Shown here piece after piece: positions 1 through 15,055 of a stretch of DNA of 64,000 bases. The notes under the pieces were generated by a model. The model ran no database searches and was not told the origin of the DNA. It saw only the letters and a program-made list of their open reading frames with translations. Every line of letters begins with the position of its first letter. Positions within the stretch are counted from its first letter, which is position 1. A program made the position numbers and the translations under genes. The DNA is from Saccharomonospora glauca K62. Its GTDB lineage: Bacteria > Actinomycetota > Actinomycetes > Mycobacteriales > Pseudonocardiaceae. The stretch lies in assembly GCF_000243395.2 (NCBI RefSeq), contig NZ_CM001484.1:2413847-2477846 (forward strand). Reading direction: 5' to 3'.

Positions 1-2
1 AC

Positions 3-203
3 GAGCTGGTGCTGCTCGACCACGGCGAGGTACGCGCGGCCGGGGCTCCGGACGAGGTACTGCGTCCGGAGGTCCTCGAACCCGTGTACCGCATCGGAGT
101 GCGGCGTGTGTTCTCCGACGGCGGCCTGCACCTGTTGTTCCATCCCCTCACCCGCTCCCACGCGGAGGCTGGTCCCGCGTCGTCCGATGCCACGTCCGCC
201 TAG
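3..203 (+). CDS. ABC transporter ATP-binding protein, C-terminal end (partial)
   Basis: The reading frame is open from the window edge and stops with TAG at 201-203, so only about the last 66 residues are present. The tail VLLDHGEVRAAGAPDEVL, then PEVLEPVYRIGVRRV, matches the C-terminal end of FecE/BtuD/HmuV-type ATPases, which energise import of iron-siderophores, haem or vitamin B12 through FecCD permeases. Walker A, signature and Walker B motifs would lie upstream of the window. B12 uptake would fit the neighbouring B12-dependent ethanolamine ammonia-lyase, but the fragment cannot settle the substrate. Confidence 0.7.
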   Translation, partial: ELVLLDHGEVRAAGAPDEVLRPEVLEPVYRIGVRRVFSDGGLHLLFHPLTRSHAEAGPASSDATSA

Positions 204-219
204 GCGGTACCGCCGTTTT
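203..219 (+). terminator. Terminator-like hairpin after the ABC ATPase gene
   Basis: The perfect palindrome GGCGGTACCGCC (203-214) is followed by G and TTTT. An overlapping palindrome CCGCCTAGGCGG covers 196-207. Position right at the stop codon and the short T-run suggest an intrinsic terminator isolating this gene from eutB. Confidence 0.5.
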
Positions 220-274
220 CCCGCGGTGTCGAACCGGCCCGGCTGACGTACCATATGAGATTCGACGTCCGTCC

Positions 275-1702
275 GTGTCCGGGGAGCGAGATGGCGTGTA
301 CAGACAACAGGTCCGCGGAGTCACCCACACGTTCTCCAGCCTGGTCGAGGTGATGGCGAAGGCCACGCCCTCGCGCTCGGGCGACGAACTCGCCGGGTGC
401 GCCGCGGAGTCGGACCGCGAGCGCGCCGCCGCGCAATGGGTGCTCGCGGACATTCCGTTGACCGATTTCCTCGACCACCCCGTGGTCCCCTACGAAGAGG
501 ACGAGGTCACCCGGTTGATCATCGACACCCACGACGCCGCGGCGTTCCAGCCCGTGTCGCATCTGACGGTGGGCGGGTTCCGGGACTGGCTGCTCGCCAC
601 CGCCGCCCGCGACGACGGAGACGCCCAGCTCTCGGCGCTCGCGCCCGGCCTGACACCGGAGATGGTCGCCGCGGTCTCCAAGGTGATGCGCAACCAGGAC
701 CTCATCGCCGTGTCCCGCGCCGTCACCCACACGTCGGCGTTTCGCACCACCATCGGACTTCCGGGCCGGTTGAGCACGCGGCTGCAACCGAACCACCCGA
801 CCGACGATCCGGGTGGTGTGGCCGCCGCCGTTCTCGACGGTCTGCTGTTGGGGTGTGGTGACGCGGTCATCGGGGTCAACCCGGCCGGCGACGATCCCCG
901 TCGCACGGCGGACCTGCTGCGCCTGCTCGACGAGATCCGCGAGCGGTACCGGATTCCCACGCAGTCCTGCGTGCTGACGCACGTCACCACCACGCTCGAT
1001 CTGATCGCCGAGGGGGCCCCGGTGGATCTGGTCTTTCAGTCGATCGCCGGGACCGAGGCCGCCAACCGCAGCTTCGGGGTCTCGCTGTCCTTGTTGGCCG
1101 AGGCCCACGACGCGGGCCGGTCGCTGAGGCGTGGCACGGTCGGCGACAACGTCATGTACTTCGAGACCGGGCAGGGCTCGGCCCTGTCCGCGGGAGCCCA
1201 TCTCGGGACCGGTGGCAGGCCCGTCGACCAGCAGACGTTGGAGGCGCGCACCTACGCGGTCGCCCGCGCCTTCGAACCGCTGTTGGTGAACACCGTCGTG
1301 GGGTTCATCGGACCGGAATACCTCTACGACGCCAAGCAGATCATCCGGGCCGGGCTGGAGGACCGGTTCTGTGGCGCCCTGCTGGGGCTGCCCATGGGGG
1401 TGGACGTCTGCTACACCAACCACGCCGTCGCCGACCAGGACGACATGGACGTCCTGTTGACGCTGCTGGCCGCCGCGGGCTGCGCGTTCGTCATCACCGT
1501 GCCCGGCGCCGACGACGTGATGCTGGGGTACCAGAGCCTGGCCTTCCACGACGTCCTCTACGCCCGCCGGTTGCTGGGGCTGCGTCCCGCACCCGAGTTC
1601 GAGCGATGGTTGCGGGACCTGGAGCTGGCCGACGATCGCGGCAGGGTGCTTCCCACCGCGTTGGACACCTCGCCCCTGCGGGAGTTGGTGAGCGGGCTGT
1701 GA
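275..1702 (+). CDS. eutB: Ethanolamine ammonia-lyase large subunit EutB
   Basis: The 475-residue protein is the catalytic large subunit of the adenosylcobalamin-dependent lyase that converts ethanolamine to acetaldehyde and ammonia. EutB hallmarks run throughout: SGDELAG and EDEVTRLI near the N terminus, GDAVIGVNP, CVLTHVTTTLDLI, YFETGQGSALSAGA, NTVVGFIGPEYLYDAKQII, and the C-terminal PAPEFERWL. Length equals the usual 450-475. The GTG at 275 opens the frame; an in-frame GTG at 296 (VYRQQV) starts nearer to where E. coli EutB begins and may be the real start. The stop overlaps the eutC start as GTGA (1699-1702), so the two subunits are translationally coupled. EutB looks intact, but its partner EutC is split by the inserted element, so holoenzyme activity is doubtful while the element is in place. 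Confidence 0.95.
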   Translation: MSGERDGVYRQQVRGVTHTFSSLVEVMAKATPSRSGDELAGCAAESDRERAAAQWVLADIPLTDFLDHPVVPYEEDEVTRLIIDTHDAAAFQPVSHLTVGGFRDWLLATAARDDGDAQLSALAPGLTPEMVAAVSKVMRNQDLIAVSRAVTHTSAFRTTIGLPGRLSTRLQPNHPTDDPGGVAAAVLDGLLLGCGDAVIGVNPAGDDPRRTADLLRLLDEIRERYRIPTQSCVLTHVTTTLDLIAEGAPVDLVFQSIAGTEAANRSFGVSLSLLAEAHDAGRSLRRGTVGDNVMYFETGQGSALSAGAHLGTGGRPVDQQTLEARTYAVARAFEPLLVNTVVGFIGPEYLYDAKQIIRAGLEDRFCGALLGLPMGVDVCYTNHAVADQDDMDVLLTLLAAAGCAFVITVPGADDVMLGYQSLAFHDVLYARRLLGLRPAPEFERWLRDLELADDRGRVLPTALDTSPLRELVSGL

Positions 1703-1761
1703 GTGGCTCCGAGCTCGGCCGGGACGAACGATCGGCGGCCGTGGACGCGTGGCGTCCGCTA
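1699..1761 (+). pseudogene. eutC: eutC 5' fragment (21 codons), interrupted by the integrative element
   Basis: A GTG at 1699 overlaps the eutB stop and encodes 21 EutC residues ending DAWRPL at the attachment core. Beyond 1761 the frame runs into the element and stops at TAG 1819-1821, giving a 40-codon chimera that overlaps the integrase start at 1806. Joining 1761 to 10918 gives DAWRPL followed by RRLTRARIGLGRTGD, the conserved start of the EutC fold, in one uninterrupted frame of 283 codons, a normal EutC length. This shows that the integration site lies within eutC. Confidence 0.9.
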
Positions 1762-1777
1762 GCGCATATCGGGGTTG
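1757..1777 (+). other. attL: core CGCTA plus left-end arm
   Basis: The core CGCTA (1757-1761) is followed by the element arm AGCGCATATCGGGGTTG (1761-1777), which is the reverse complement, with one mismatch, of the arm at the right end. Host eutC sequence lies to the left. Confidence 0.8.
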
Positions 1778-1805
1778 CAACACTGGTCCACGTAAGCTTG
1801 GTTGC

Positions 1806-3242
1806 ATGGTCGAACTGGTAGCGCTGAGGAAGACGAACGAGGTGGCGGCCTACGTCCGCGCCTCCATGGACCGCAAGGGCGACCGCTGGACGGTCGATAC
1901 CCAGCTGAGGAAGATCAAGGCGCTGGCCGAGGCCAAGGACTGGAACGTGGTCGAGGTCTACGAGGACAACGCGGTGTCGGCGACGAAGAAGCGCCGCGCT
2001 GGCACCCGGTGGGCAGAGATGCTGGACGACGCCCGAGCAGGCCGGTTCTCGATGGTCGTCGCCGTGGACATGGACCGCCTCCTGCGCAGCACCAAGGATC
2101 TCAACACACTGATCGACCTCGGTCTGCGCGTCGTCACCGTGGACGGCGAGATCGACCTCTCGACGGCGGACGGCGAGTTCCGGGCGACGATGCTCGCCGC
2201 CCTCGCCCGGTTCGAAGCCCGGCGCAAGGCAGAGCGCCAGATCAGATCGAACGAGCGCCGACGTACAGAAGGCATCCCCACGTCGGCCTGGAAGGCGTTC
2301 GGCTGGACGCGCGATGGCGAGTTGATCCCCGAGGAGGCCGAGGCCGTGCGGCGAGCCTTCGACGCGTTCCTCGGCGAGCCGTCGCTGTCGATCCGACGCA
2401 TCCGCGAGGACCTGAACAGCGCCGGTCACCTCACCGCGCGCGGGTCGGAGTTCTCAGTCGATGCCGTGAGGTACCTGCTGGCGAACCCGCTCTACGCTGG
2501 CTACATCAAGCACTACGCGTCGGGCGAGCTGTACCCCGTGCAGGGCGAGGTGTTCCCGCCAATTGTGAGCGAGCAGACGTGGCGGGCCGCGGTTGCGAAG
2601 CTGGAGGACAACGTGCGGAGGTCGGCGAGGCAGGGGAACCAGCCGAAGTACCTACTCTCCGGGATCGGCCTGTGCGGAAAGTGCGGGGCGACGCTTGTCT
2701 CGGGGACGAACAGCCGCAAGCAGCCGACGTATCGCTGTGGAGAGCACTTCCACCTCACGCGCCAGCGCGAGCCCGTCGATGCGATGGTCACCGAGGCGGT
2801 GCTCACCCGCCTGTCCTCGGTGGACGTGCACGACCTGGTGATGCCGCAGGAGGACGGTAGGCCGGACCGCGAGGAGCTGCTGACCGAGCGGAACGCGCTG
2901 GTCGAGCGCGTGAAGGAACTGAGCCCGCTGCTGCGCGACATCCATCAGCCGGTCCTTGAGATCACGGCGGCGATCAATGACGTGAAGGCCCGCATCGACG
3001 AGATCGACGCGGAGCTGCTCGACCGCTCGGTGTCGGCGGCGGTGAAGCTGCTCGCGGACGTGGACGAGCTGGTCGGAACCGTGGAGCGCCGGGAGATGGT
3101 CGAGTCGAAGTGGAAGGCGCTGGATGTGGACCGTCGCCGGATGCTCGTGGACGAGCTGGTGACGGTGACCGTCGCGCCGATCCGGCCCGGTCACGTGCGG
3201 TTCGATCCCGACCTCATCCGGATCGAGCCGCGTCGCGATTGA
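1806..3242 (+). CDS. Large serine recombinase (site-specific integrase)
   Basis: The 478-residue protein is predicted to catalyse integration, and with a directionality factor excision, between attP and eutC attB. Domain order is that of large serine integrases: N-terminal resolvase domain (about 10-150) with the nucleophile serine in YVRASMDRKG and the DMDRLLRS motif; recombinase domain (about 155-260, with VRYLLANPLYAGYI); zinc ribbon beginning CGKCG with a later CGEHFH; then a coiled coil (about 370-440). The ATG at 1806 has only a weak ribosome binding site; the in-frame GTG at 1749 lies in host eutC DNA and is rejected. The gene begins 45 bp inside attL and follows eutB-eutC' on the same strand, so transcription may come from the host eut promoter in the integrated state and from the merR side in the circular form. 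Confidence 0.92.
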   Translation: MVELVALRKTNEVAAYVRASMDRKGDRWTVDTQLRKIKALAEAKDWNVVEVYEDNAVSATKKRRAGTRWAEMLDDARAGRFSMVVAVDMDRLLRSTKDLNTLIDLGLRVVTVDGEIDLSTADGEFRATMLAALARFEARRKAERQIRSNERRRTEGIPTSAWKAFGWTRDGELIPEEAEAVRRAFDAFLGEPSLSIRRIREDLNSAGHLTARGSEFSVDAVRYLLANPLYAGYIKHYASGELYPVQGEVFPPIVSEQTWRAAVAKLEDNVRRSARQGNQPKYLLSGIGLCGKCGATLVSGTNSRKQPTYRCGEHFHLTRQREPVDAMVTEAVLTRLSSVDVHDLVMPQEDGRPDREELLTERNALVERVKELSPLLRDIHQPVLEITAAINDVKARIDEIDAELLDRSVSAAVKLLADVDELVGTVERREMVESKWKALDVDRRRMLVDELVTVTVAPIRPGHVRFDPDLIRIEPRRD

Positions 3243-3283
3243 CTCATGATTCGACTCGTCATTGCAATGGTGAGTCGAGTCAT
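3239..3283 (+). promoter_or_regulatory. Dyad operator-like site downstream of int
   Basis: Arms ATGATTCGACTC (3246-3257) and GAGTCGAGTCAT (3272-3283) are inverted with one mismatch around a 14-nt spacer that contains the palindrome ATTGCAAT. A TTGACT (3239-3244) overlapping the int stop could be a -35 box for rightward transcription of the leader and rep operon, which would place the dyad over the promoter. A double-strand origin or oriT are alternatives, because this is the only sizeable non-coding stretch of the element. Confidence 0.45.
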
Positions 3284-3512
3284 GGGAGAATCGTTGCAGA
3301 GGCGAATGGACAGCGCTTCGTGGTCCGCGGGGGCAGCGAAGTGGCATGTCCCCGGGCTGGCAAACGGAGTGAACCTCGCGTGAGCGAGGGTGAGACACCC
3401 CCGGTGAAACGAAAGCAATCCCCGACGGGCGGGCCACCGTCGAAGCTCCGACCGAGAGGTCGCCAAGAGTGAGGGCTCTTGGAACTCCCGAAGAACGATC
3501 TTCGGGAGTTTT
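3284..3512 (+). ncRNA. Putative structured leader RNA upstream of the rep operon
   Basis: About 230 nt without a convincing gene contain a chain of perfect hairpins: CCTCGC/GCGAGG closed by a GTGA (GNRA) loop at 3374-3389; CGACGG/CCGTCG at 3423-3442; CGACC/GGTCG with a GAGA (GNRA) loop at 3449-3462; CCAAGAG/CTCTTGG at 3463-3482; and a terminator at 3483-3510 with a T-run. A 38-codon ORF (3267-3383) overlaps the 5' half and ends in the first GNRA loop; it may be a leader peptide or chance. No known RNA family was recognised. A cis-regulatory attenuator or copy-control RNA for rep is the simplest reading. Confidence 0.45.
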
Positions 3513-3514
3513 CT
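3483..3514 (+). terminator. Intrinsic terminator overlapping the ribosome binding site of the rep operon
   Basis: AACTCCCGAAG (3483-3493) and CTTCGGGAGTT (3500-3510) form a perfect 11-bp stem with a 6-nt loop, followed by TTCT. The GGGAG inside the 3' arm lies 6 nt before the ATG at 3515, so the same hairpin would both terminate transcription and hide the Shine-Dalgarno sequence. This points to conditional read-through into the rep operon. Confidence 0.65.
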
Positions 3515-3721
3515 ATGTCCTCGACGGACACCCGCACTTTCACGAGCCTTCCGCCTGACCTCGAGCAGGGGCAGGGGCTCCCTGCCCGCGATGAGGGCCT
3601 CGCGCCCGTCATCGCCGCCGCCCGCGCTGCGGGTCGCGTGGCTGGTGAGCGGTTGACTCATACTCCGCTGAACCCGCGCCAGCGCGCCACCGTCGCCGCC
3701 ATGATGGGCGGTGATCGCTGA
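3515..3721 (+). CDS. Small protein of the element, unknown function
   Basis: The 68-residue protein MSSTDTRTFTSLPPDLEQGQ... ends GGDR and matches no family that I recognise. It is hydrophilic with an Ala-rich centre (VIAAARAAGRVAGERL) and has no membrane segment. The ATG at 3515 is chosen because GGGAG lies 6 nt upstream; an in-frame TTG at 3479 would place the start inside the preceding hairpin. Its TGA overlaps the next ATG by one base (TGATG), so it is coupled to the HTH gene and rep. An accessory or copy-control role is inferred only from position. Confidence 0.6.
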   Translation: MSSTDTRTFTSLPPDLEQGQGLPARDEGLAPVIAAARAAGRVAGERLTHTPLNPRQRATVAAMMGGDR

Positions 3722-3969
3722 TGAGCGCGAACTCCGCCGCCTTCGATCACCTGACCGGCTTCCGCTGGCGTCAGGGCGACCCCTCCCTCGCCAACATGGA
3801 GGCACGGCTCTACGACCTCGGCGTGCTCCGCTCCGTGCTGGAAGAGGCCGTCGAGATCGCCGTCGCCGACGCCCGCGCCGAGGGCGTGACGTGGGCCAGG
3901 ATCGGCGACGCCCTCGGCGTCACGCACCAGGCCGTGATCAAGCGTTACCGCAAGGGCGGTGGTCGCTGA
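3721..3969 (+). CDS. Small helix-turn-helix protein
   Basis: The 82-residue protein carries a clear C-terminal helix-turn-helix, VTWARIGDALGVTHQAVIKRY, typical of small DNA-binding regulators and sigma-like HTH domains. The N-terminal half is mostly helical and acidic. It is tightly coupled by one-base TGATG overlaps to both the preceding small ORF and the rep gene, suggesting a copy-control or accessory replication role. The dyad at 3246-3283 is a candidate target. Function beyond DNA binding is not shown by the sequence. Confidence 0.65.
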   Translation: MSANSAAFDHLTGFRWRQGDPSLANMEARLYDLGVLRSVLEEAVEIAVADARAEGVTWARIGDALGVTHQAVIKRYRKGGGR

Positions 3970-6221
3970 TGCACCCCGACGCCCGCAACCTCAGCACCGA
4001 TCCCGTCGACCTGACCCCGCCCGGAGGGCCTGGTCTGGCACCCGCCGAAGGCGGGGTGCCCGGTGCCGTTCCGAGCGACGGGAACCGGGCTCTCCCCGTC
4101 GGGGACGATTTTGCCGGAAACGGCTATACGGCTGCACCGACCGATTCCGGCGAGTCCGAGATTCCCGCCGATCTCAGCTCTGACCAGGGAACTGTCGCCG
4201 CTCTGCATGCGCGGCCCTCCTTGGGTGGCCGCGCATCCGTTTCGGAAACGGCTGCACCGGCGCCTACCTCGGGTGCAAGCGTGGACTTCGCCGAGCTGGA
4301 CGTGCCGGGGGCCGATCCCGGTGACGAGGTCGAACCGTTCGTCGTCGAGTCCACGCCTGCGCAGGTCGCCGAGGCGAAGGCGTTCTTCGCCGCCGCGAAG
4401 ACGGCGGAGAGCCCGGAGCAGGCGAAGCGCGCCCGTATGCAGTCACGCGTGTTCTCGGTGATGCAGTACCGCGAGCACCCGGAGACCGGCGAGGTCATGC
4501 TCACGCAGGAGCAGATCGACGAGGGCCTCGCGGCGCTGGGCGATCGCCTCCACCGCTGGGCCTACGTGTGGCACCCGTATGACCGCCTGGTCGAGGTGGA
4601 CGAGGGTACAGGCGAGACGGTGTGCTGCGGGATCAAGGGCCTGCACGCTCACATGGTGTTGTGGGTCGCTGATGCTGATGGTCCGCGTCCTACGATCCGC
4701 ACCGTCTCCGACGCCTTCTCGATCCCCTCGGCTCGCGTGAAGCCGCCAAAAGAGACTGCCGAGCAGGAAGGCACCGAGCACAAGGGCCGCGGCGCGGCAG
4801 AGAAGGCGTTCTTCGATCTCGCTGAGTACCTGCCGCATGAGTCGCGGGGGAAGAACGCCATCCCGGGCATCCACCAGCCGGAGCGGCACTACCTCGTGGA
4901 CAAGACGCAGGAGGGCATGCCTGGCAAGTACCAGTACGGCCGGGGCCGGATCGTCGCGAACTTCGATTTCGGGCGGGAGCTGGACGCGCACATGGCGATG
5001 CGCCGCAACGCCGCTGAGGGCGGAGGCAGGGCGAAGCTCAGCAAGCTCTTCCAGGCCGTGGGCAAGGGCTCGCTGACGCTGAAGCAGGTCCGCGATCAGG
5101 AGCCCGCGATCTACTTCGCGAAGGGCAACCTGGCGCACTTCCAGAAGCTGCGCGGCGACTTCCTCGCGTATCAGGACGCACCGGAGTCGGTCATGAACTT
5201 CTACGTGTTCGGCGAGGGCGGCACGGGCAAGGACCTGCTCGCGAAGGCGCTGGCTCGCGCTCTGGCCCCGGATGCGGACAAGCCGTACTTCAAGGTGGGC
5301 GGCGAGAACGTCTCGTGGGAGGGCTACGACGGCGAGCCGGTCGTGATCTGGGAGGACACGCGCGTCGGTGACATGATCCGCACGGCCAAGAGCCGCGGGA
5401 TGCTCTTCCGCATTCTCGGCCCGTGGCGCGAGCCGGACGAGAAGCCGATCGTGAACATCAAGGGATCGAAGACTCAGTTGCTCAACCGGGTGAACATCGT
5501 TACGGGTCCCGAGGGCTACGAGGAGTTCCTCCGCGGCTTGGCTGGCGAGTACGAGTCGATGCAGGGCGGCGTGCGGGTCAAGCACCAGGCGGAGAACCTC
5601 GGGCAGGGGTTCCGCCGCTTCCCGGTGATCATCCCGGTCGCCGAGCGCGAGTTCTCGATCTTCGTGAACTCCGGTGTGCTCAACGGCACCCGCGAGTACC
5701 AGCGTTATGAGCGGTACGAGCACATGCGCCAGGACCTGGAGTTGCTGGCGCGCAGGTGCAAGGCGATCAAGGACACCGCGGAGCGCGAGCGCGTGCGCGG
5801 AGAGATCGAGGCGCGCACGGTCGCGCCGATCGTGGAGCAGCACGACCGGATAGCGCGCCCCGAACTGGAGGCGATCAACGGGGACGAACTGTTCGCGGAA
5901 TTCGCTGGAGTCGGCCAGCCGATCCAGCCGAGCGCTGAGGAGATCGCCGCCGCCGAAGAGGCGGCGAAGTGTGACCGTGAGGTCGTCGAGGAGCAGCAGC
6001 GCAGGCGGCTCGCCGAGCTGGAGGAGCACAACCGTGAGTTGCAGCTCTGCACGTGTTCCACTCCGCAGGCGGGCGTCTACGCGCGGCATGGGGATGAGTG
6101 CCTGGCGCTCTCCGAGGATGAGCGTCAGCGCCGCGCTGAGGCGAAGCAGAAGGTGCTCGATGCGAAGGTCGCGCGGCTCCGCGCGAACGGCGGTCTGCTG
6201 GTCGCGGGAGGTGCGGCATGA
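3969..6221 (+). CDS. Rolling-circle replication initiator Rep with helicase domain
   Basis: The 750-residue protein combines an N-terminal HUH-endonuclease-like region, with the His-hydrophobe-His motif in KGLHAHMVLWV (about residue 222), and a central P-loop ATPase with Walker A FGEGGTGKD (about 417) and Walker B PVVIWEDTR. This matches Rep proteins of actinobacterial rolling-circle plasmids, which nick the double-strand origin and unwind DNA with a superfamily 3-type helicase. A charged C-terminal region (about 570-740) follows. The first 120 residues are low complexity. ATG at 3969 overlaps the preceding stop, and the stop overlaps the mobC-like gene as ATGA. A Rep on an integrating element suggests replication of the excised circle. 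The catalytic Tyr was not assigned with certainty. Confidence 0.8.
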   Translation: MHPDARNLSTDPVDLTPPGGPGLAPAEGGVPGAVPSDGNRALPVGDDFAGNGYTAAPTDSGESEIPADLSSDQGTVAALHARPSLGGRASVSETAAPAPTSGASVDFAELDVPGADPGDEVEPFVVESTPAQVAEAKAFFAAAKTAESPEQAKRARMQSRVFSVMQYREHPETGEVMLTQEQIDEGLAALGDRLHRWAYVWHPYDRLVEVDEGTGETVCCGIKGLHAHMVLWVADADGPRPTIRTVSDAFSIPSARVKPPKETAEQEGTEHKGRGAAEKAFFDLAEYLPHESRGKNAIPGIHQPERHYLVDKTQEGMPGKYQYGRGRIVANFDFGRELDAHMAMRRNAAEGGGRAKLSKLFQAVGKGSLTLKQVRDQEPAIYFAKGNLAHFQKLRGDFLAYQDAPESVMNFYVFGEGGTGKDLLAKALARALAPDADKPYFKVGGENVSWEGYDGEPVVIWEDTRVGDMIRTAKSRGMLFRILGPWREPDEKPIVNIKGSKTQLLNRVNIVTGPEGYEEFLRGLAGEYESMQGGVRVKHQAENLGQGFRRFPVIIPVAEREFSIFVNSGVLNGTREYQRYERYEHMRQDLELLARRCKAIKDTAERERVRGEIEARTVAPIVEQHDRIARPELEAINGDELFAEFAGVGQPIQPSAEEIAAAEEAAKCDREVVEEQQRRRLAELEEHNRELQLCTCSTPQAGVYARHGDECLALSEDERQRRAEAKQKVLDAKVARLRANGGLLVAGGAA

Positions 6222-6808
6222 GCACCGAACTCGATGGGCACTTCCAGGGGATCGAAGGGGGCGCAGCCCCCTCGCAAGCAGGCAAGGAGGACATGAGCGC
6301 CAGCGAAATGTCCGACGCGCCTACTGCTTGCCACTCTGGCGTACAGGCGGAGCAGCAGGCCGACTCCCGGGTGAACACCGGTCGGGCTGATGCGGAGGCT
6401 GTGCGCCAGAGTCACGGCGGCGCGGAGCGTCGTCGTGGCAGCGGCGGGCGGCTCGATACGCGCTTCGATGACGCCACGCTCGGGGCGGTTCGCACTCGTG
6501 CGAAGCGGCTCGGGCTGGCTCCGAGCACGTGGGTGCGGACCGTCGTGCGCGATGCGCTCCATGCATCTCGGAGCGAGGAGCTGGACGCCGCCGTGGCCGC
6601 GCACCTGCTCGGGGTCGAGGAGCGCGTGCAGGCGTCTGCTGATGCTCGGGAGCTGGCCGCCCAGGTGCGCCCGCTCGCGATCAACGTCAACGACCTGGAC
6701 CGCCGTGCTCGCGCGGGTGAGCCGGTGTCGCTGTCGGCGGAGGTGCCCGAGCTGATCGAGCTGCTCCGCGAGATCCGCGCCCTGCTCGGTGATCGGGCGG
6801 CCTCATGA
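6218..6808 (+). CDS. MobC-like relaxosome accessory protein
   Basis: The 196-residue protein has a disordered N-terminal third and then a ribbon-helix-helix-like segment, RLDTRFDDATLGAVRTRAKR followed by LGLAPSTWVRTVVRDAL, and a C-terminal region with the MobC-type pattern INVNDLDRRARAGEPVS and LIELLREIRALLGD. Proteins of this type bind oriT and help the relaxase open DNA. It overlaps rep and the relaxase gene by 4 bp on each side (ATGA), as in a single mobilization/replication operon. An exact family assignment needs profile comparison. Confidence 0.7.
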   Translation: MSTELDGHFQGIEGGAAPSQAGKEDMSASEMSDAPTACHSGVQAEQQADSRVNTGRADAEAVRQSHGGAERRRGSGGRLDTRFDDATLGAVRTRAKRLGLAPSTWVRTVVRDALHASRSEELDAAVAAHLLGVEERVQASADARELAAQVRPLAINVNDLDRRARAGEPVSLSAEVPELIELLREIRALLGDRAAS

Positions 6809-8091
6809 GCACGACACATTACAGTCCGAGCGCCAGCGCCGCCGACACCGAGCGCTACATCCGGGGCAAGGAGGACGAGCGCGGCGTCGCGATCACGTGC
6901 GACGTGCCGGGAGGCCCCGGCGCGTTCTCGGCGCGCGCCCGCGCGCTCACCCAGAACACGAAGCGCGACGTCGAGGCGCTGCACTACAGGCAGTCGTTCA
7001 GCGACGAGGAGTTCGACCCGAAGAATCCGGAGGACGTGCAGCGGGTGAACGATCTGGGCTATCAACTCGCGAAGAAGATGCACCCAGATTCCGACTGCCT
7101 CGTGGTCAGTCATGTGGACGGACGCGGGAAGAAGCCGCACAACCACATCTTGGTCATCAACCACAGCAATCGGACGGGAAGAGCGCTCAGCGACTACCGC
7201 ACGTTCCACGACCGCAAGGCCGGGAACCAGCGGGGCGTTCAGTCAGCGAACGACGAACTCATGCGCGAGCACGGTCTCTCGGTCGTGAAGCGTCTGGAGC
7301 ACGCACCGAAGGACTGGGAGCTGCGCCGCGAGGACTTCGCCGAGGGCGGGCTCGACCGCGAGATGGGCGACCGGATGAGCGCCGCCCTGGCTGATCCCCG
7401 TGCGGTGGACAAGGCCGGTCTCGAAGCGGTGATCGAGGAGCAGAACCAGCAGCTCGGCGATGACGGGGAGCGGGTGCCGCGGATGCGCCTCCACACCGCC
7501 ATCAGCAAGCGAGGGAAGAACGTCGGCAAGGAGACGTGGACGCTCTACATCGAGGACCGCCGCGGCGAGTCCGGGCGTGCCGAGCGACGCAAGCGCACGA
7601 GTGCGCTCTCGACAGATTTCACCCCGGAGGGCGCGCGGGCGTTCTTCGACTACCACCAGCAGCAGGAGGAGCAGGAACATGAGCGCAGCGCTCGACAGGC
7701 TGAAGCAGCAGAACGCGCAGAGCGGATCGCAGCAGCAGCTCGACAGTCCGGAGACGATGGAGGCGTTGACCTCGATCCTCGCCGCCGTCGAGGCGCAGAA
7801 CGCGAGGCTCGACCGGCTGGCCGAGCAGCAGAAGAAGCTCGCGGGGTTCGTGAAGGTCATGGACGAGGAGACGACGAGGCGGCTGGAGCGGATCACGGCC
7901 CCGGCGTCAACCTCCTCGCCCTCCAGCGACGTGTCCGCGAGGATCGCGAGTATCGAGAGCAGGCAGAACGAGATCGCGAGCACGCTCGGCGAGTTCGCGC
8001 AGAGTCTCAACGGCGAGAGCTTAAACGCCGCGTCGCAGAGCTTGGTCGCGGAGGCGCAGAGGAACCACGTGGCTACGGCATCGGCGATTGA
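6805..8091 (+). CDS. Relaxase (MobA/VirD2-type, MobP-like)
   Basis: The 428-residue protein nicks oriT and leads mobilization. The three-histidine motif is clear: CLVVSHVDGRGKKPHNHILV then IN (about residues 97-118), typical of Relaxase/MobA-VirD2. Candidate catalytic tyrosines lie near the N terminus (HYSPSASAADTERYI). The relaxase domain spans about 1-200. From about residue 290 the sequence becomes a low-complexity Glu/Arg-rich tail, the part that overlaps the next gene in another frame for 413 nt (7679-8091). ATG at 6805 overlaps the mobC-like stop. No type IV coupling protein accompanies it, so transfer would need a helper element. Confidence 0.85.
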   Translation: MSTTHYSPSASAADTERYIRGKEDERGVAITCDVPGGPGAFSARARALTQNTKRDVEALHYRQSFSDEEFDPKNPEDVQRVNDLGYQLAKKMHPDSDCLVVSHVDGRGKKPHNHILVINHSNRTGRALSDYRTFHDRKAGNQRGVQSANDELMREHGLSVVKRLEHAPKDWELRREDFAEGGLDREMGDRMSAALADPRAVDKAGLEAVIEEQNQQLGDDGERVPRMRLHTAISKRGKNVGKETWTLYIEDRRGESGRAERRKRTSALSTDFTPEGARAFFDYHQQQEEQEHERSARQAEAAERAERIAAAARQSGDDGGVDLDPRRRRGAEREARPAGRAAEEARGVREGHGRGDDEAAGADHGPGVNLLALQRRVREDREYREQAERDREHARRVRAESQRRELKRRVAELGRGGAEEPRGYGIGD

Positions 8092-8581
8092 GGGGCTCAA
8101 GGCGCAGGCCGCGGCGAACCAGAAGCTCGTCAGACAGGTCGGCTGGGCGGTGCAGCGGATCGAGAAGCACACCGAGGAGCGGGTCCAGAAGGCCGTCGAG
8201 CAGGTCACCGGAGAGGCTTCGACCACGATGACCGCGAACCTCGACGCGTCGAACGAACGGGCCGAGCGGATCATCGCCGCCACCGCGAAGCTGGAGGCCC
8301 GGCAGCTGTGGTCGGCCGCCGCCGCGATGTGCCTCGCGCTCCTGCCGGTGGTGGTCGTCATCGCTGGGCTCTGGATGGGCATCGCCGGGCTCATCACCGG
8401 CGCTCAGTGGGCGCTGGACGTGGACGGTAGCGTGTGGCTCGGGATCGGGCGCTGGCTCGTGATCGCCGTGGGCCTCGCGGCGGCCGGCTACGGGGTCTTC
8501 GCGTCCGTCCGCTGGGTTGTTGGTCTCGTGGAGACCTGGAAGGGTCGCGGGATGCCGACGTGGCCGAGCTGGCGACGATGA
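7679..8581 (+). CDS. Coiled-coil membrane protein nested in the relaxase gene (MobB-like position)
   Basis: The 300-residue protein starts at ATG 7679 behind GGAGCAGGAAC, inside the relaxase gene in a different frame. Residues 1-200 are Gln/Glu/Ala-rich heptad-like coiled coil (LDRLAEQQKKLAGFVKVMDE). Two hydrophobic segments follow (about 215-245, AMCLALLPVVVVIAGLWMG, and about 260-285), then a short basic tail. Nested mobilization genes encoding membrane proteins are known from ColE1-type plasmids, where mobB lies within mobA, so a MobB-like role in docking the relaxosome is plausible. No family was recognised by sequence. The natural-looking composition here, against the low-complexity relaxase tail, suggests that this frame is the one under selection in the overlap. 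Confidence 0.7.
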   Translation: MSAALDRLKQQNAQSGSQQQLDSPETMEALTSILAAVEAQNARLDRLAEQQKKLAGFVKVMDEETTRRLERITAPASTSSPSSDVSARIASIESRQNEIASTLGEFAQSLNGESLNAASQSLVAEAQRNHVATASAIEGLKAQAAANQKLVRQVGWAVQRIEKHTEERVQKAVEQVTGEASTTMTANLDASNERAERIIAATAKLEARQLWSAAAAMCLALLPVVVVIAGLWMGIAGLITGAQWALDVDGSVWLGIGRWLVIAVGLAAAGYGVFASVRWVVGLVETWKGRGMPTWPSWRR

Positions 8582-8595
8582 CTGGAGCCACTCGA

Positions 8596-8617
8596 ACTAC
8601 TGACCCCGGTCAGTAGT
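8596..8617. terminator. Bidirectional hairpin between mob genes and mercury module
   Basis: ACTACTGACC and GGTCAGTAGT form a perfect 10-bp inverted repeat around CC. It lies between the convergent mobilization operon and the leftward Cys-rich membrane gene, whose stop codon it contains. It has no T-run. Confidence 0.5.
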
Positions 8618-8899
8618 CGAACGATTGCCGCAGCCGCCGGTCGAGCGACGTCGGTGCCGCGGCAGTCGCCGGAGGACGATCGCCGCTGTGACGGCCACCC
8701 CGACTGCGATCCCGGCACCGATGAGCCAAGGGTTGCCGAGGAAACCTCCGATACCTGCAAGGGCTCCGCCCGCGGCGAGGAGAGGCAGGCCGCAGCAGAT
8801 CAGCAGCGGAAGCGCGCAGCATGCCAACAGGAGCAAGCCCGTCCCAGCACCGACAAGCACGCCCGCGCGATGCGAGTCGTGGCCCTTATCGCCGCTCAT
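8597..8899 (-). CDS. Small Cys-rich membrane protein, candidate mercuric ion transporter
   Basis: The 100-residue protein has two or three hydrophobic segments. The first contains two vicinal cysteine pairs (LLACCALPLLICCGLPLL, about residues 24-41); a Gly-rich loop (GGALAGIGGFLGNPW) leads to a final segment and a basic tail (VLRRLPRHRRR) with one more Cys. Paired cysteines in the first membrane helix resemble MerT and related importers that pass Hg2+ to MerA, but the sequence is not clearly MerT, MerC or MerF. It starts at ATG 8899 behind GGGAGAGGAAC, 51 bp after merA on the same strand, so it should share the MerR-controlled promoter. Confidence 0.7.
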   Translation of the reverse strand: MSGDKGHDSHRAGVLVGAGTGLLLLACCALPLLICCGLPLLAAGGALAGIGGFLGNPWLIGAGIAVGVAVTAAIVLRRLPRHRRRSTGGCGNRSTTDRGQ

Positions 8900-8950
8900 C
8901 GTCTGTTCCTCTCCCAGCTGAGCGTTCCCCCCGATTGTCTGCGTGCGCGT

Positions 8951-10375
8951 TCACGCGCAGCACGACAGGAGCGACGGATCGGTGGTGAAGGCCTTGGCGG
9001 CGATCCGGATGCCCTCGGCCATGGTCAGGTAGGGGGCCCAGGCGTCGGCGACCTCGGCGACGGTCTTGCCGAGCACGTGGACCCCGGCGGCGGCGAGCTC
9101 GCCGGCGTCCTTGGCGACGGCGGTGATGCCGAGGATCTTCCCCGTGTCGGCGTCCACGACGATCTTGACGAAGCCGCGGGTGTCGCGGTTGACCAGGGCG
9201 CGGGGCACGTGGTGCAGGGGCAGGACGCGGCAGTCGCAGCGGATCCCGGCGGCGACGACGTCCTTCTCGGTCATCCCGACCGCGCCGATCGCCGGGCCGG
9301 TGAACGTGACCCTCGGCAGCCGGGCGTAGTCCACGGCCCGGTCGGCGTCGGTGAACGCGTTCTCGGCGACGAGGGTGCCGTGCTGGGCGGCGACGTAGAC
9401 GAATTCGGGGTGGCCGGTCACGTCGCCCGCGGCCCAGATCCGCGGGTGGGAGGACTGCATCCGGTCGGAGACGACCACCTCGCCGAGGTCCCCGGTCTTG
9501 ACCCCGACCGCGTCGAGGCCGAGCCCGTCGGTGGCCGGTCGTCGTCCGAGGGCGAGGAGCACCTGGTCGGCGCGGAACTCCTCCCGGCCGCCGGCGACGT
9601 CCGCGGTGACGACGGCCTGCCCGGTCGCGGCGTCGCGGGACACCCGCGTCGGCAGCGCGCGGCGGACCACCCGGATGCCCTCGTCGGCGAACACCTCCTG
9701 CAGCGTCCTGGACACCTCCGGCTCCTCCTTCGACGCGAGCCGGGACCGGGCCAGCACGGTGACCTGGGAGCCGAGCCGGGCGAACAGCTGCGCCTGCTCC
9801 AGGGCGACGTAGCCGCCGCCGAGCACGAGCAGGGACTCAGGGAGTTCGGTCAGCTCCATCGCCGTGGTCGAGGTCAGGTACCCGGTCTCGTCCAGGCCGT
9901 CGATCGGCGGGGCCCACGGCCGAGAGCCAGTCGCGACCAGGTAGTGCGCGGCCTCGATCGTCTCGGTGCTGCCGTCGTCCTCGGCGACCTGGAGGACCGG
10001 TGCGTCGGGGGTGCCGGCGAACGCGGCGTCCCCGCGGCGGACGGCCCACCCGTAGGAGTCGGCGACGTCGGCGTACTTCTCGCCCCGCAGCGACTCGACC
10101 AGCGCCTGCTTCCCGGCGATCAGGGCGGGCATGTCCACCGGCCCCGCCGTCGTCTCGATCCCCGGGAACCGGTCGGCGGCGTCGGCCGCGGAGTGCCATG
10201 CGTCGGCCGCGGCGATCAGGGCCTTCGACGGCACGCAGCCGGTGTTCACGCAGGTGCCGCCGAGCGTCCCGCGCTCGATCATCACCACCGACTTGCCGAG
10301 CGTGGTCGCGCGGATCGCGGCGGCGAACGCACCGCCGCCCGATCCGATGATGGCGAGGTCGTACTTCGTGGGCAT
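8951..10375 (-). CDS. merA: Mercuric reductase MerA
   Basis: The 474-residue flavoprotein reduces Hg2+ to volatile Hg0 with NADPH in the cytoplasm. It has the FAD-binding GSGGGAFAAAIRA near the N terminus, the redox-active pair in GGTCVNTGCVPSK (about 40-52), the NAD(P) motif VLGGGYVALEQAQL, the second FAD motif IWAAGDVTG, and the diagnostic C-terminal vicinal cysteines LLSCCA that separate MerA from other disulfide reductases. The N-terminal NmerA metal-binding domain is absent. ATG at 10375 has AGGAGC seven bases upstream; the in-frame TTG at 10390 is less likely. It is divergent from merR across a MerR-type operator. Confidence 0.95.
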   Translation of the reverse strand: MPTKYDLAIIGSGGGAFAAAIRATTLGKSVVMIERGTLGGTCVNTGCVPSKALIAAADAWHSAADAADRFPGIETTAGPVDMPALIAGKQALVESLRGEKYADVADSYGWAVRRGDAAFAGTPDAPVLQVAEDDGSTETIEAAHYLVATGSRPWAPPIDGLDETGYLTSTTAMELTELPESLLVLGGGYVALEQAQLFARLGSQVTVLARSRLASKEEPEVSRTLQEVFADEGIRVVRRALPTRVSRDAATGQAVVTADVAGGREEFRADQVLLALGRRPATDGLGLDAVGVKTGDLGEVVVSDRMQSSHPRIWAAGDVTGHPEFVYVAAQHGTLVAENAFTDADRAVDYARLPRVTFTGPAIGAVGMTEKDVVAAGIRCDCRVLPLHHVPRALVNRDTRGFVKIVVDADTGKILGITAVAKDAGELAAAGVHVLGKTVAEVADAWAPYLTMAEGIRIAAKAFTTDPSLLSCCA

Positions 10376-10417
10376 CGCAGCTCCTGTCAATACTTGGACT
10401 TCCGGTCTATCTCAGCC

Positions 10418-10449
10418 ATACTGGACCTTCCAGTGCAGGGGAAGGTCAA
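10418..10449 (-). promoter_or_regulatory. MerR-type promoter/operator for merA
   Basis: The dyad GACCTTCC (10424-10431) and GGAAGGTC (10440-10447) sits between a leftward -35 TTGACC (10449-10444) and a -10-like CAGTAT (10423-10418), giving a spacer near 20 bp. An overlong spacer holding a dyad is the mark of promoters untwisted by MerR-family activators when metal binds. Confidence 0.8.
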
Positions 10450-10482
10450 GAGGGCTTCTGCCGAAAGAACAGGGGGCCTGCG

Positions 10483-10872
10483 ATGCGCATCGGGGAACTC
10501 GCCGAGCGGGCGGGAACGACGGCGAAGACGCTGCGGTTCTACGAGGAGCAGGGCCTGCTGCCCCCGGCCGAGCGCACGCCGTCCGGATACCGCGACTACG
10601 CGCCCGAGACGGCCGCCCGGATCGACTTCGTCCACCGCGGCCAGGCCGCGGGCCTCACCCTCGCCCAGATCCGCCAGATCCTCGAAATCCGCGACGGCGG
10701 CGCTGCTCCCTGCGAGCACGTGCGCGACCTCCTCGACGCGCGCCTCGCCGAGATCGAGCAGCAGATCGCCCAGCTCACAGCGCTCCGAGACACCATCGCC
10801 GAGCTCAGGCACGACGCCGCGCAGCCCGACCCCGACTCGTGCAGCGCGGACCAGGTCTGCCGATACCTGTAA
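10483..10872 (+). CDS. merR: MerR, mercury-responsive transcription regulator
   Basis: The 129-residue protein has the MerR winged-helix DNA-binding domain at 1-70 (MRIGELAERAGTTAKTLRFY, EEQGLLPP), a dimerisation helix at about 80-112, and cysteines at 77, 120 and 126, matching the spacing of the three Hg2+ ligands in classical MerR (82, 117, 126). It is divergent from merA and would repress, then with Hg2+ activate, the promoter between them. It is the last gene before attR. In the excised circle it lies directly upstream of the integrase, about 90 bp away, so its promoter could drive int there. Confidence 0.9.
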   Translation: MRIGELAERAGTTAKTLRFYEEQGLLPPAERTPSGYRDYAPETAARIDFVHRGQAAGLTLAQIRQILEIRDGGAAPCEHVRDLLDARLAEIEQQIAQLTALRDTIAELRHDAAQPDPDSCSADQVCRYL

Positions 10873-10886
10873 ACGGCAGAGCCGTT
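10872..10886 (+). terminator. Short hairpin after merR
   Basis: AACGGC and GCCGTT (6-bp stem, AGA loop) begin at the merR stop codon. The hairpin is small and lacks a T-run, so termination is only possible. Confidence 0.3.
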
Positions 10887-10899
10887 CGCGCCAACGCCA

Positions 10900-10917
10900 C
10901 AACCCCGACATGCGCTA
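10900..10917 (+). other. attR: right-end arm plus core CGCTA
   Basis: The arm CAACCCCGACATGCGCT (10900-10916) is the inverted partner of the left-end arm at 1761-1777. The core CGCTA lies at 10913-10917, and host eutC continues at 10918. Confidence 0.8.
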
Positions 10918-11706
10918 CGGCGGCTCACTCGCGCCCGGATCGGTCTCGGGCGCACCGGTGACGCCGTTCCGCTGCGGCGGGTGCTGGAGTTCCGGGCCGA
11001 CCACGCCGCCGCACGCGACGCCATCCACCAGCCCCTCGACGTCGCCGCGCTGGCCGCCGACGTCCGCGCGGTGGGTGTGGGCACGCCCGTCGTCGTGCGC
11101 AGCCGGGCCCGTGATCGGCAGGAGTACCTGCGCCGCCCCGACCTCGGTCGGGTGCCCGCCGACCTCGCCGCGGTGTCCGCCAGCGGGGCGGACGTGGGGA
11201 TCGTGCTGGCCGACGGTCTGTCGCCGCGGGCGCTCGCGATTCACGGCGCGCCGCTGTTGGCCGCGTTGGTGACCGAACTGGGTCCGGTGTACTCGATCGC
11301 CTCCCCGGTCATCGCCACCCAGGCCCGCGTGGCGATCGGCGACCATCTCGGCGCGGCGCTCGACGTGACCACGGTGCTCGTCGTGATCGGGGAACGCCCC
11401 GGCCTGTCGGTCGCCGACAGTCTCGGCATCTACCTGACCCATCACCCGCGTCCCGGCCGCACCGACGCCGAACGCAACTGCGTGTCGAACATCCATCCGC
11501 CGGACGGACTCGGCTACGAACGGGCCGCCGCCACCGTCCACCGCCTGGTGGCCGGAGCCAGGCGGCTCGGCCGGTCGGGTGTGGAATTGAAGGACGACGG
11601 CGCCGCGGCCCCGGCGTCCGTGGACACCGGGACTCCCCGGCACAGCCTCGGTCCCGCGCCGGGTGGTGCCGCCACGGACGATTCCTCCGGGGTCAATCCC
11701 GAATGA
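10918..11706 (+). pseudogene. eutC: eutC 3' fragment (ethanolamine ammonia-lyase small subunit)
   Basis: This fragment encodes 262 residues of EutC: RLTRARIGLGRTGDAVPLRR, then DHAAARDAIHQPLD, PDLGRVPADL, ADGLSPRALAIHGAPLL, VVIGERPGLSVADSLG and the closing NCVSNIHPPDGLGYERAA. EutC is the regulatory/structural subunit needed for B12-dependent lyase activity. Upstream the frame closes at TAA 10870, and the first in-frame start is GTG 10981, which would drop the first conserved helix. Joined to codons 1-21 at 1699-1761 it gives a normal 283-residue subunit, so the gene is disrupted by insertion rather than decayed. Confidence 0.92.
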
Positions 11707-11722
11707 GCACGCCGGATCGCGG

Positions 11723-12721
11723 TCAAGGGGTCGGTTCCGGTTCTTCCCGGCGACGGGCCCGAAGGCTGGTGAACGTCACGACCGCCAGGATGACCACGAT
11801 GGCGAGCAAGGACACCGGGGTGGGGATCTCCGGCACGCCGGGCCAGATGCCGTGGGCCCAGTGCAGCACCAGCTTGACGCCGATTAGGGCCAGGATCAGG
11901 GCGAGACCGTAGTTGAGGTGCGCCAGCTTGCGCAGCGTCGTGCGCAGCACGAAGTACAGCGCCCGCAGTCCCAGCAACGCGAAGGCGTTGGTGGTGAAGA
12001 CCAGGTACGGGTCCTCGGTGATGCCGTAGACGGCGGGGACCGAGTCGACCGCGAACACCACGTCGGTGGCGAAGATCGCCACGATCACCACGGTGAACGG
12101 CGTGAGCATGCGCCGCCCACCTTCCCGGACGGTGAGCCTGCTGCCCCGGTAGTCGTCGGTGACCGGCATCAGCTTCCGCAGCAGCCGCACCGAGCGCAGC
12201 TCGGAGACCTCCATCTCCTCCCGGTCCCCGCCGCGCACCTCGTCGTGAAGGATCTTCCCCGCGGTGACGACCAGAACCGCGCCGAACAACAGGAATGCCC
12301 ACGTGCCCGCCTGCAGGATCGCCGCCCCCAGCGCGATGAACGCGCCCCGCAGCACCAAGGCGCCGACGATGCCCAGCAGCAGCGCCCGCTGGTGCAGTTC
12401 CTCCGGGACCGCGAACGCGCTCAGCAGGAGCATGAACACGAACAGGTTGTCCACCGACAACGACTTCTCCACCAGGTATCCGGTGAAGAACTCCAGTGAC
12501 TGCGCGCCGCCGTAATCGATCCACAACCACACCCCGAACAACACCGGCAGGACGAGGTAGAACACCGACCAACCGACCGCTTCACCGAGCCTCACCTCGT
12601 GCGGGCGGCGCGTGACGACGAAATCCATGACCAACAGCCCGGCCAGGACGGCAAGACTGAGCGACCACAGCAGTGGGGACCCGATCGACTCCGACGCGGT
12701 GGCGGGGGCGGCATCGAGCAC
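11723..12721 (-). CDS. TerC/Alx-family integral membrane protein (probable Mn2+ exporter)
   Basis: The 332-residue protein has about nine membrane segments and the TerC family signatures EKSLSVDNLFVFMLLLSAFA and FATDVVFAVDSVPAVYGITE, with acidic residues inside the membrane thought to bind metal. Relatives such as Alx and MeeY-type proteins export manganese. GTG at 12721 lies 5 nt after AGGAGG. A Mn2+ riboswitch precedes it and a manganese catalase gene is divergent beside it, both supporting Mn2+ rather than tellurite as its business. It is convergent with the eutC fragment. Confidence 0.88.
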   Translation of the reverse strand: MLDAAPATASESIGSPLLWSLSLAVLAGLLVMDFVVTRRPHEVRLGEAVGWSVFYLVLPVLFGVWLWIDYGGAQSLEFFTGYLVEKSLSVDNLFVFMLLLSAFAVPEELHQRALLLGIVGALVLRGAFIALGAAILQAGTWAFLLFGAVLVVTAGKILHDEVRGGDREEMEVSELRSVRLLRKLMPVTDDYRGSRLTVREGGRRMLTPFTVVIVAIFATDVVFAVDSVPAVYGITEDPYLVFTTNAFALLGLRALYFVLRTTLRKLAHLNYGLALILALIGVKLVLHWAHGIWPGVPEIPTPVSLLAIVVILAVVTFTSLRARRREEPEPTP

Positions 12722-14185: not shown

Positions 14186-15055
14186 ATGGCAAGACTGGCG
14201 AACTGGAAGAAGTCCGTCGTCGCAGTCGCCGCGGTGGCTCTTACCACCGCGGGACTCACGATGGCCTCCACGGCACCGGCCTCCGCCGCTGCCCGAAACG
14301 GCGTCTGCGAAAGCGGCGAGTTCTGTTACTACTACAACAGCAACAATCAGGGTTCGGTCTCGGATTTCACGAGCTCGCTGGCCAATTACGGGACCACGCA
14401 ACCCAGCTGCTACGAGTTCAAGGGCTCGGGCAACGGCCAGGGGCTGTGCATCAAGAACAACGCCGCGTCGGTGTGGAACCGCAGTAACGTCACGGTGCGG
14501 GTCTACTACAACTCCAACTACGGCGGCGCGTACCAGGACTTCGCGCCGGGCGCGAAGGGCAACCTGAACTCGACGCTGAAGAACAACAACGCCTCGCACC
14601 AGTTCAACCCCGGCTCGGCGGGTCAGTTCTGGCTGCCCTTCCCGTGTGGTGAGACATGGGAGGCGGGCACCCGTACCAACCACAGCCCGGCCAACGCCGT
14701 CGACTTCAACCACTACCCCGAGGACAACGGCTGGAAGGTCTACGCCTCGGCCCCCGGCACCGTGTCCAAGGTCGCCAACACGGGCAGCACCTCCTACGGC
14801 CGTTACATCGTGATCGACCACGGAAGCGGCTGGCAGACGCTCTACGCGCACCTGAGCTCGCAGGACGTCTCCGTCGGCCAGAAGGTCACCGAGAAGACGA
14901 TGATCGGCCGGGTCGGCAGCACCGGTGGCTCCACCGGACCGCACCTGCACTACGAGCAGAAGCTCAACGGAGCGGTGCAGAAGGTGAAGTTCCGTGACGG
15001 CAGCCCCGTCTACTGGGGCAAGACCAACCTGCAGCGTAAGACCAACTGCCCCTAG
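14186..15055 (+). CDS. Secreted protein with peptidase-inhibitor I36-like and M23 metallopeptidase domains
   Basis: The 289-residue protein has a signal peptide (about 1-35: basic WKKS, hydrophobic core, cut after APASA). Residues about 38-145 are Cys/Tyr/Asn-rich (GEFCYYYNSNNQGSVSDF) and resemble the inhibitor I36 fold, a beta-gamma-crystallin-like module. Residues about 150-280 form an M23/LytM domain with zinc ligands in NHSPANAVDFNH (His, Asp) and GPHLHYEQ (HxH). M23 enzymes cut peptidoglycan cross-bridges, so a cell-wall or antibacterial role outside the cell is likely. ATG 14186 follows TAGGAGTCGAG, and a TATAAA-like element lies about 30 bp upstream. Confidence 0.85.
   Translation: MARLANWKKSVVAVAAVALTTAGLTMASTAPASAAARNGVCESGEFCYYYNSNNQGSVSDFTSSLANYGTTQPSCYEFKGSGNGQGLCIKNNAASVWNRSNVTVRVYYNSNYGGAYQDFAPGAKGNLNSTLKNNNASHQFNPGSAGQFWLPFPCGETWEAGTRTNHSPANAVDFNHYPEDNGWKVYASAPGTVSKVANTGSTSYGRYIVIDHGSGWQTLYAHLSSQDVSVGQKVTEKTMIGRVGSTGGSTGPHLHYEQKLNGAVQKVKFRDGSPVYWGKTNLQRKTNCP

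Follow-up and report, generated by a model that had tools for sequence, protein, structure and literature searches.

A 9,156-bp element interrupts eutC, a gene of ethanolamine ammonia-lyase, in Saccharomonospora glauca K62. We analysed the 64,000-nucleotide stretch that contains it (hereafter the window, in which position 1 is the first nucleotide). Our preferred reading, to which we assign a probability of roughly 0.88, is that the insert is a mercury-resistance integrative mobilizable element (IME) of an actinobacterial family that is driven by a serine integrase and blind to orientation, and that it occupies a secondary site. A large serine integrase would drive integration, with a tyrosine codon in a luciferase-like flavin oxidoreductase (LLM) gene as its usual attB. 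With a self-complementary TA crossover and near-equivalent attP half-sites, attP would join attB in either alignment and the ends would still pair. In a genus without the LLM site, the element would have used a leucine codon in eutC, CTA, that happens to contain TA. Restoration of eutC on excision would then be a side effect of conservative recombination rather than evidence of a switch.

Insertion of the element into eutC

The element splits eutC after codon 21 (Table 1). The gene starts at GTG 1699 and overlaps eutB by 4 bp. Copies of CGCTA stand at 1757-1761 and 10913-10917, a spacing of 9,156 bp, and joining the eutC flanks at this repeat gives 852 nt, that is, 283 codons and a stop with no internal stops. 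The N-terminus of the joined EutC (..DAWRPLRRLTRARIGLGRTGDAVPLR..) agrees with ..DAWHPLRRLTRARIGLGRTGDAVPLR.. of an uninterrupted eutC in the window's genus (L056), and two further uninterrupted copies from that genus (L057 and L059) are also consistent with the join. The original prediction that the element sits precisely in eutC and leaves a restorable gene is borne out by the repeat copies and the 283 open codons, as is the junction it foresaw for uninterrupted relatives. Six of the 12 genomes in the genus have a eutC gene, among them that of S. glauca K62, which holds a single match. Comparison with relatives of the element placed the crossover more exactly, at the terminal TA of CGCTA. 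Neither an Rfam scan of window positions 1-12000 nor a tRNA scan of the whole window gave a match, which argues against a tRNA gene as attB.

Table 1 Features of the interrupted eutC locus and the inserted element (window coordinates)
Feature	Position	Strand	Basis and remarks
eutB, ethanolamine ammonia-lyase large subunit	275-1702	+	PF06751, E 1e-208; NF011649
eutC 5' part, 21 codons including crossover TA	1699-1761	+	matches intact eutC L056
attL, crossover TA 1760-1761, flank limits approximate	1740-1780		junction and comparison with relatives
Large serine integrase, 478 aa	1806-3242	+	PF00239 and PF07508 above cut-off; PF13408 just below; phrog_95 integrase
Small ORF, 80 aa	3479-3721	+	no family match; related sequence in 20/33 elements, mostly partial
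Small HTH protein, 82 aa	3721-3969	+	PF13384 below cut-off; phrog_686; 31/33 elements
Putative replication protein, helicase-like domain, 750 aa	3969-6221	+	PF00910; full-length match in 4/33 elements
196-aa protein preceding relaxase	6218-6808	+	no Pfam or PHROG match; 30/33 elements, two partial
Relaxase, MobA/VirD2-like	6805-8091	+	PF03432, E 3e-13
300-aa coiled-coil/membrane protein (by eye), overlapping relaxase end	7679-8581	+	33/33 elements; no family match
100-aa small membrane protein adjoining merA	8597-8899	-	no family match
merA, mercury(II) reductase	8951-10390	-	TIGR02053, 549.9 bits (cut-off 454.45)
merR-family metal-responsive regulator	10483-10872	+	PF13411/PF09278; NCBIfam matches below their cut-offs
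attR, crossover TA 10916-10917, flank limits approximate	10896-10936		junction and comparison with relatives
eutC 3' part, first in-frame start past junction GTG 10981	10913-11706	+	PF05985; NF003971, 251 bits

The integrase carries two domains of large serine integrases above cut-off (PF00239, 83.3 bits; PF07508, 52.2 bits), while the match to the zinc ribbon domain, PF13408, scores 22.7 bits against a cut-off of 25.3. The element also encodes its own relaxase, as recognized by Pfam. Pfam matches of the ten element ORFs, four of which have no match at all, include no type IV secretion or coupling genes and no FtsK/TraB translocase. By its predicted gene content, the insert is an IME with mercury resistance that would be mobilized by a helper element, and the near-identical elements found in different genera (see below) imply some transfer. 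The 82-aa HTH protein is a candidate regulator or directionality factor and the 750-aa protein a putative Rep. By position only, the 196-aa protein would be MobC-like, and the 100-aa membrane protein, likewise judged by its position, is a possible mercury transporter.

The usual insertion site is a tyrosine codon in an LLM gene

A scan of genome contigs found 51 loci with a close relative of the integrase (86-100% identity over the best segment), in Brevibacterium, Brachybacterium, Kocuria, Actinomyces, Corynebacterium, Gordonia and other genera. One locus, L028, is uninformative, its contig starting at the junction. At 47 of the 50 informative loci the left end adjoins one and the same codon of an LLM gene, the Tyr codon in the ..GVIDMRYENP.. 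stretch of a PF00296 protein; at none is the insertion gene eutC. The L028 contig belongs to a metagenome-assembled genome (MAG) that also has an element in LLM (L006), and begins exactly at the attL crossover (L028:1-46), which may reflect a mixture of occupied and empty sites or of flipped ones.

The three loci with another left flank are L010, L048 and L051. The element lies in an ABC-2 permease-like gene in L048 (Thermocrispum municipale) and in an ABC transporter permease gene (BPD_transp_1) in L051, which is a MAG; L010 has an FG-GAP gene on its left and the 3' half of LLM on its right. In L010, from Kocuria carniphila, the FG-GAP repeat gene occupies L010:9256-9954 and the LLM 3' half lies near L010:18499. 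A close match to the LLM 5' half is absent among the matches listed for this genome, and the locus represents either a rearrangement or an assembly join at the TA site.

Right ends were located for 31 of the LLM loci, 13 forward and 18 reverse. After insertion the Tyr codon reads TAG in 30 of the 31, in both orientations. Both LLM halves are open over the expected length in 29 of the 31 insertions and decayed in the other two, which suggests that the insertions are recent. In L017 and L029 the split LLM gene has in-frame stops in both species, the target decaying in some hosts. Intact LLM sites occur in 30 of 38 genomes of the genus of L019, and two of the eight genomes without one (G393 and G394) hold known elements.

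A self-complementary crossover and insertion in both orientations

Of the 31 two-ended loci, 17 have a direct repeat of exactly TA and the other 14 a longer repeat that contains TA; a 2-bp crossover common to attP and attB is found in this dinucleotide. TA is its own reverse complement. The core of Tn4451 is GA. Across 32 sites, the window's included, the reconstructed attP is symmetric at a mean of 12.6 of 18 pairs (range 8-16) and attB at 5.1 of 18 (range 3-8). In the window's deduced attP, 15 of 16 pairs around TA are symmetric, a value that none of 20,000 shuffles reached (best of eight centres). These comparisons show TA to be the crossover dinucleotide and the arms of attP, as reconstructed, to be near-palindromic.

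In the LLM gene, the integrase runs in the direction of the gene in 20 insertions and against it in 27, a ratio that fits 50:50 (binomial p 0.38); 26 of the 27 reverse calls were made by pattern and one (L025) by eye. On an integrase tree that took in L049, aligned, orientation changes 13 times among 43 labelled rows, against a mean of 12.5 when labels are shuffled, and 375 of 500 shuffles are as low. Furthermore, elements 99.7-99.9% identical occur in both orientations. One such set, with 10-26 differing positions over 8,646 bp, comprises L017, L020 and L024 in the forward direction, hosted by Actinomyces massiliensis, A. bowdenii and a Propionibacterium, and L023, L025 and L030 in reverse, hosted by Brevibacterium epidermidis, Arachnia propionica and Pauljensenia; L031/L029 and L035/L050 are further cases. 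Since near-identical elements lie both ways round and orientation is unclustered on the tree, orientation is not inherited with the element.

The aligned insertions show that insertion occurs both ways round, and we infer that the reaction itself lacks polarity. The self-complementarity of TA and the near-equivalence of the attP half-sites would account for the loss of polarity. The asymmetric core that fixes a single orientation, a feature of the studied large serine integrases that we do not treat as defining them, was not found here. In the A118 integrase the natural core alone sets direction, and symmetric core mutants give both deletion and inversion products (PMC3556126, excerpt); the same relation between core and direction comes from work on Bxb1 and phiC31 cited in PMC3783163 (excerpt).

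The second orientation could alternatively arise after an insertion of fixed polarity, by inversion in place through antiparallel attL x attR recombination at the symmetric core. Such inversion would leave the same products as reverse integration, and att sites with symmetric A118 cores do give inversions, there between attP and attB (PMC3556126, excerpt). However, inversion in place still requires a symmetric core, and the parallel and antiparallel alignments of attL x attR differ, whereas that of attP x attB is described as two-fold symmetric (PMC3783163, excerpt). We regard inversion as an unlikely sole source of the second orientation. To the fuller proposition that this is a natural integrase family with a TA core and near-palindromic attP, which lacks polarity and whose element also flips in place, with the eutC insertion as one secondary-site product, we give even odds.

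Consequences for eutC

The eutC reading frame now ends within the element, at TAG 1819-1821. Translation could in principle restart at GTG 10981, which is in frame and has the co-directional merR upstream, so that a working N-truncated EutC would keep ethanolamine use going. The restarted product would, however, be without LRRLTRARIGLGR, a stretch whose alignment falls inside solved EutC chains (the missing part corresponds to about residues 39-59 of 3any_B in the alignment), and we hold a working product of this kind to be very doubtful. Because of that missing stretch, loss of EutC activity is likely; the element truncates EutC, and ethanolamine ammonia-lyase activity has probably been lost with it. 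The element could excise, and excision would restore the eutC frame.

The original prediction went further, taking the conserved eutC gene as attB and the insertion as a reversible disabling of the enzyme. Its second part stands as far as the exact serine-integrase interruption and the frame that excision would restore are concerned, whereas evidence for a switch was not seen. Its first part is not supported, with 47 of the 50 informative related insertions in LLM and a genus without the LLM site. A dedicated attB in eutC, with the element acting as an on/off switch of ethanolamine use, would account for the precise insertion, the restorable frame and the presence of only one eutC. The recurrent use of one gene that marks a reversible gene switch was nevertheless absent, as none of the 50 informative related insertions lies in eutC; the crossover TA, expected under the prediction to recur in eutC relatives, is missing from all 14 that were well located; and no sign of regulation was seen. 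Restorable targets are moreover the rule in the family: both halves remain open in 29 of 31 LLM insertions, so restorability is not special to eutC. We consider such a switch very improbable.

eutC as a probable secondary site

At up to two mismatches, the LLM site is absent from all 12 genomes of the window's genus (nine of them at least 90% complete), and no LLM protein was found in that genus at E <= 1e-20. As a control, the LLM query found its own source genome at 1.5e-230 and the split halves in the occupied L019 genome, while in the genome of S. glauca K62 it met only distant paralogs (best 8e-9). LLM matches in Thermocrispum municipale, a member of the Pseudonocardiaceae, are also only distant (best 5e-12); G381, which is listed under the same family as the window, has exactly the junction seen in this species. 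We infer that eutC was an accidental landing, a secondary site that the element would have used because the genus is without the LLM site. The MAG of L051 keeps an intact LLM site despite its insertion elsewhere, so secondary insertion can also happen where the primary site is present. For comparison, the phiBT1 integrase uses pseudo-attB sites in Nocardia, where attB is missing, and in these sites the core dinucleotide alone is fully conserved (PMC5937489, excerpt).

To examine the site context, 29 eutC loci of relatives were compared. Sixteen were located by pattern, of which L060 and L092 were dropped by eye as mislocated, leaving 14; L091 was shifted by one codon by eye, and the other 13 loci were left out. 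The codon at the crossover is CTG in 12 of the 14, CTC in one and CTT in one. By a position weight matrix, which also reflects protein conservation, the eutC site ranks 28th among the 508 TA sites of the element-free window, and it appears to resemble the LLM site only weakly; we do not count this ranking in favour of a secondary site. It is very unlikely that the integrase has little specificity in general and that preferential sampling or selection produced the LLM cluster: besides eutC, other genes hold the insertions of L048 and L051, and the left flank of L010 is not LLM, but the same codon is targeted in 47 of 50 loci across many genera.

Comparison with known systems

In the open-access literature searched, we found no report of eutC as an integration site, of an LLM or luciferase-like target for the present integrase family, or of a natural symmetric or palindromic core with insertions in both orientations. 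The portion of the main text of PMC10083194, a large survey of integrases and their targets, that was available to us contains none of the terms 'palindrom-', 'luciferase-like' and 'ethanolamine'.

The closest likeness in organization is to IMEs of the Tn4451 group and others of Firmicutes, which share a single serine integrase, their own relaxase, the lack of a recognized conjugation apparatus and the disruption of a dispensable gene, and to Tn4451 itself in its very short direct repeats of 2 bp (PMC5704250, excerpt). Unlike these, the present element is actinobacterial, with a self-complementary TA and both orientations at one codon; only one canonical IME had been found in actinobacteria according to that review (PMC5704250, excerpt). 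Actinomycete AICEs resemble it in integrating into actinobacterial chromosomes and in having a putative Rep, and 19 of 144 AICEs have serine integrases (PMC3218068, excerpt), whereas the present element has a MobA-type relaxase and no recognized FtsK/TraB-type translocase.

The large serine integrases of the phages A118, Bxb1, phiC31 and phiBT1 are alike in domain order, in a 2-bp crossover, in an attP with inverted repeats and in the use of a protein gene as target (comK for A118), and phiBT1 also in its use of pseudo-attB sites (PMC5937489, excerpt). The cores of A118 (GG; PMC3556126, excerpt) and phiBT1 (GT; PMC5937489, excerpt) are asymmetric, in contrast to TA in the present family, which would lack polarity in nature. 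For Tn5252-family ICEs of Streptococcus suis, a luciferase-like monooxygenase gene is given as the target (PMC7168690, excerpt); they are conjugative and from another host group, and the likeness is one of target name. The skin element in sigK and the comK prophages likewise interrupt a protein gene in a restorable way (compare PMC5025042, excerpt), but we saw no evidence that the eutC element excises under regulation or that its site in eutC is conserved.

The novelty here would lie in a serine-integrase family that, in nature, integrates with no fixed orientation. In the serine integrases covered by the papers cited here, insertion direction is set by the two core bases, and symmetric cores were obtained by mutation (PMC3556126, excerpt); this family looks like the natural counterpart of those mutants; the rule that the core sets polarity becomes testable in nature, with 47 insertions at one codon and in both directions. 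The analysis also provides a new actinobacterial integrase with its attP/attB pair, in an element family that appears to carry metal-resistance cargo between distant genera.

Distribution and gene content of related elements

The DNA of the window's integrase is 99.4% identical to copies in Brevibacterium antiquum and a Brachybacterium MAG. The integrase was found in two of 390 sampled genomes of its own family at E <= 1e-60 (S. glauca K62 itself and G381) and in two of 394 sampled genomes of the class at E <= 1e-150 (S. glauca K62 itself and one partial match). On these samples the integrase family is taxonomically broad yet rare, and, judged by sequence identity, the element family has moved recently between actinobacterial genera. 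Searches of plasmids returned no match to the integrase at E <= 1e-40 and, for the whole element, only the mer end and short fragments among the best 20 of 22 records. No relatives were found among viral contigs with patterns built from one sequence only. Phage integrases were rejected as close kin, as all 118 records fall below 60% identity and the best among the matches listed reaches 35%.

Elements with both ends located number 33 (the 31 LLM insertions, L010 and L048). The integrase has a full-length match in 31 of them, with 64% in L048 and 53% in L049. For the relaxase, the matched part amounts to at least 91% of the length in 30 of the 33 and to only 18% in L015, L029 and L031. The latter three have the integrase, the putative Rep of 750 aa and the 300-aa protein in common with the window's element, while the 196-aa protein is absent from them; they may carry another mobilization module, swapped for that of the window's element.

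Sequence related to merA occurs in 12 of the 33 elements and is partial in L034. Ten representative cargo proteins were scanned at E <= 1e-10, giving four P-type metal ATPases, one MerR-type regulator, one cation diffusion facilitator (below its cut-off), two MFS efflux proteins (below the cut-offs for named pumps) and two without a match, one of them an antisense frame. The last is a 692-aa ORF of L017, rejected as cargo; the true frame encodes a further P-type ATPase. The MFS efflux proteins replace metal genes in two elements (L022:16242-17696 and L036:16743-18032). By these comparisons, the family combines a relaxase, a variable putative Rep and exchangeable metal or efflux cargo.

The Thermocrispum copy (L048:9955-16066) matches the window's element over only 64% of the integrase and 19% of the putative Rep. 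Its mercury module has 100% protein identity with that of the window, pointing to a recent exchange of the cargo end. A plasmid of Micrococcus luteus (NZ_CP043850.1) matches the window's element at 86% from the mer region to the right end (window 8649-10917), so exchange of cargo between plasmids and the element family seems to occur. Beyond the element, window positions 14186-15055 encode a secreted protein whose C-terminal half, by eye, resembles a peptidoglycan endopeptidase.
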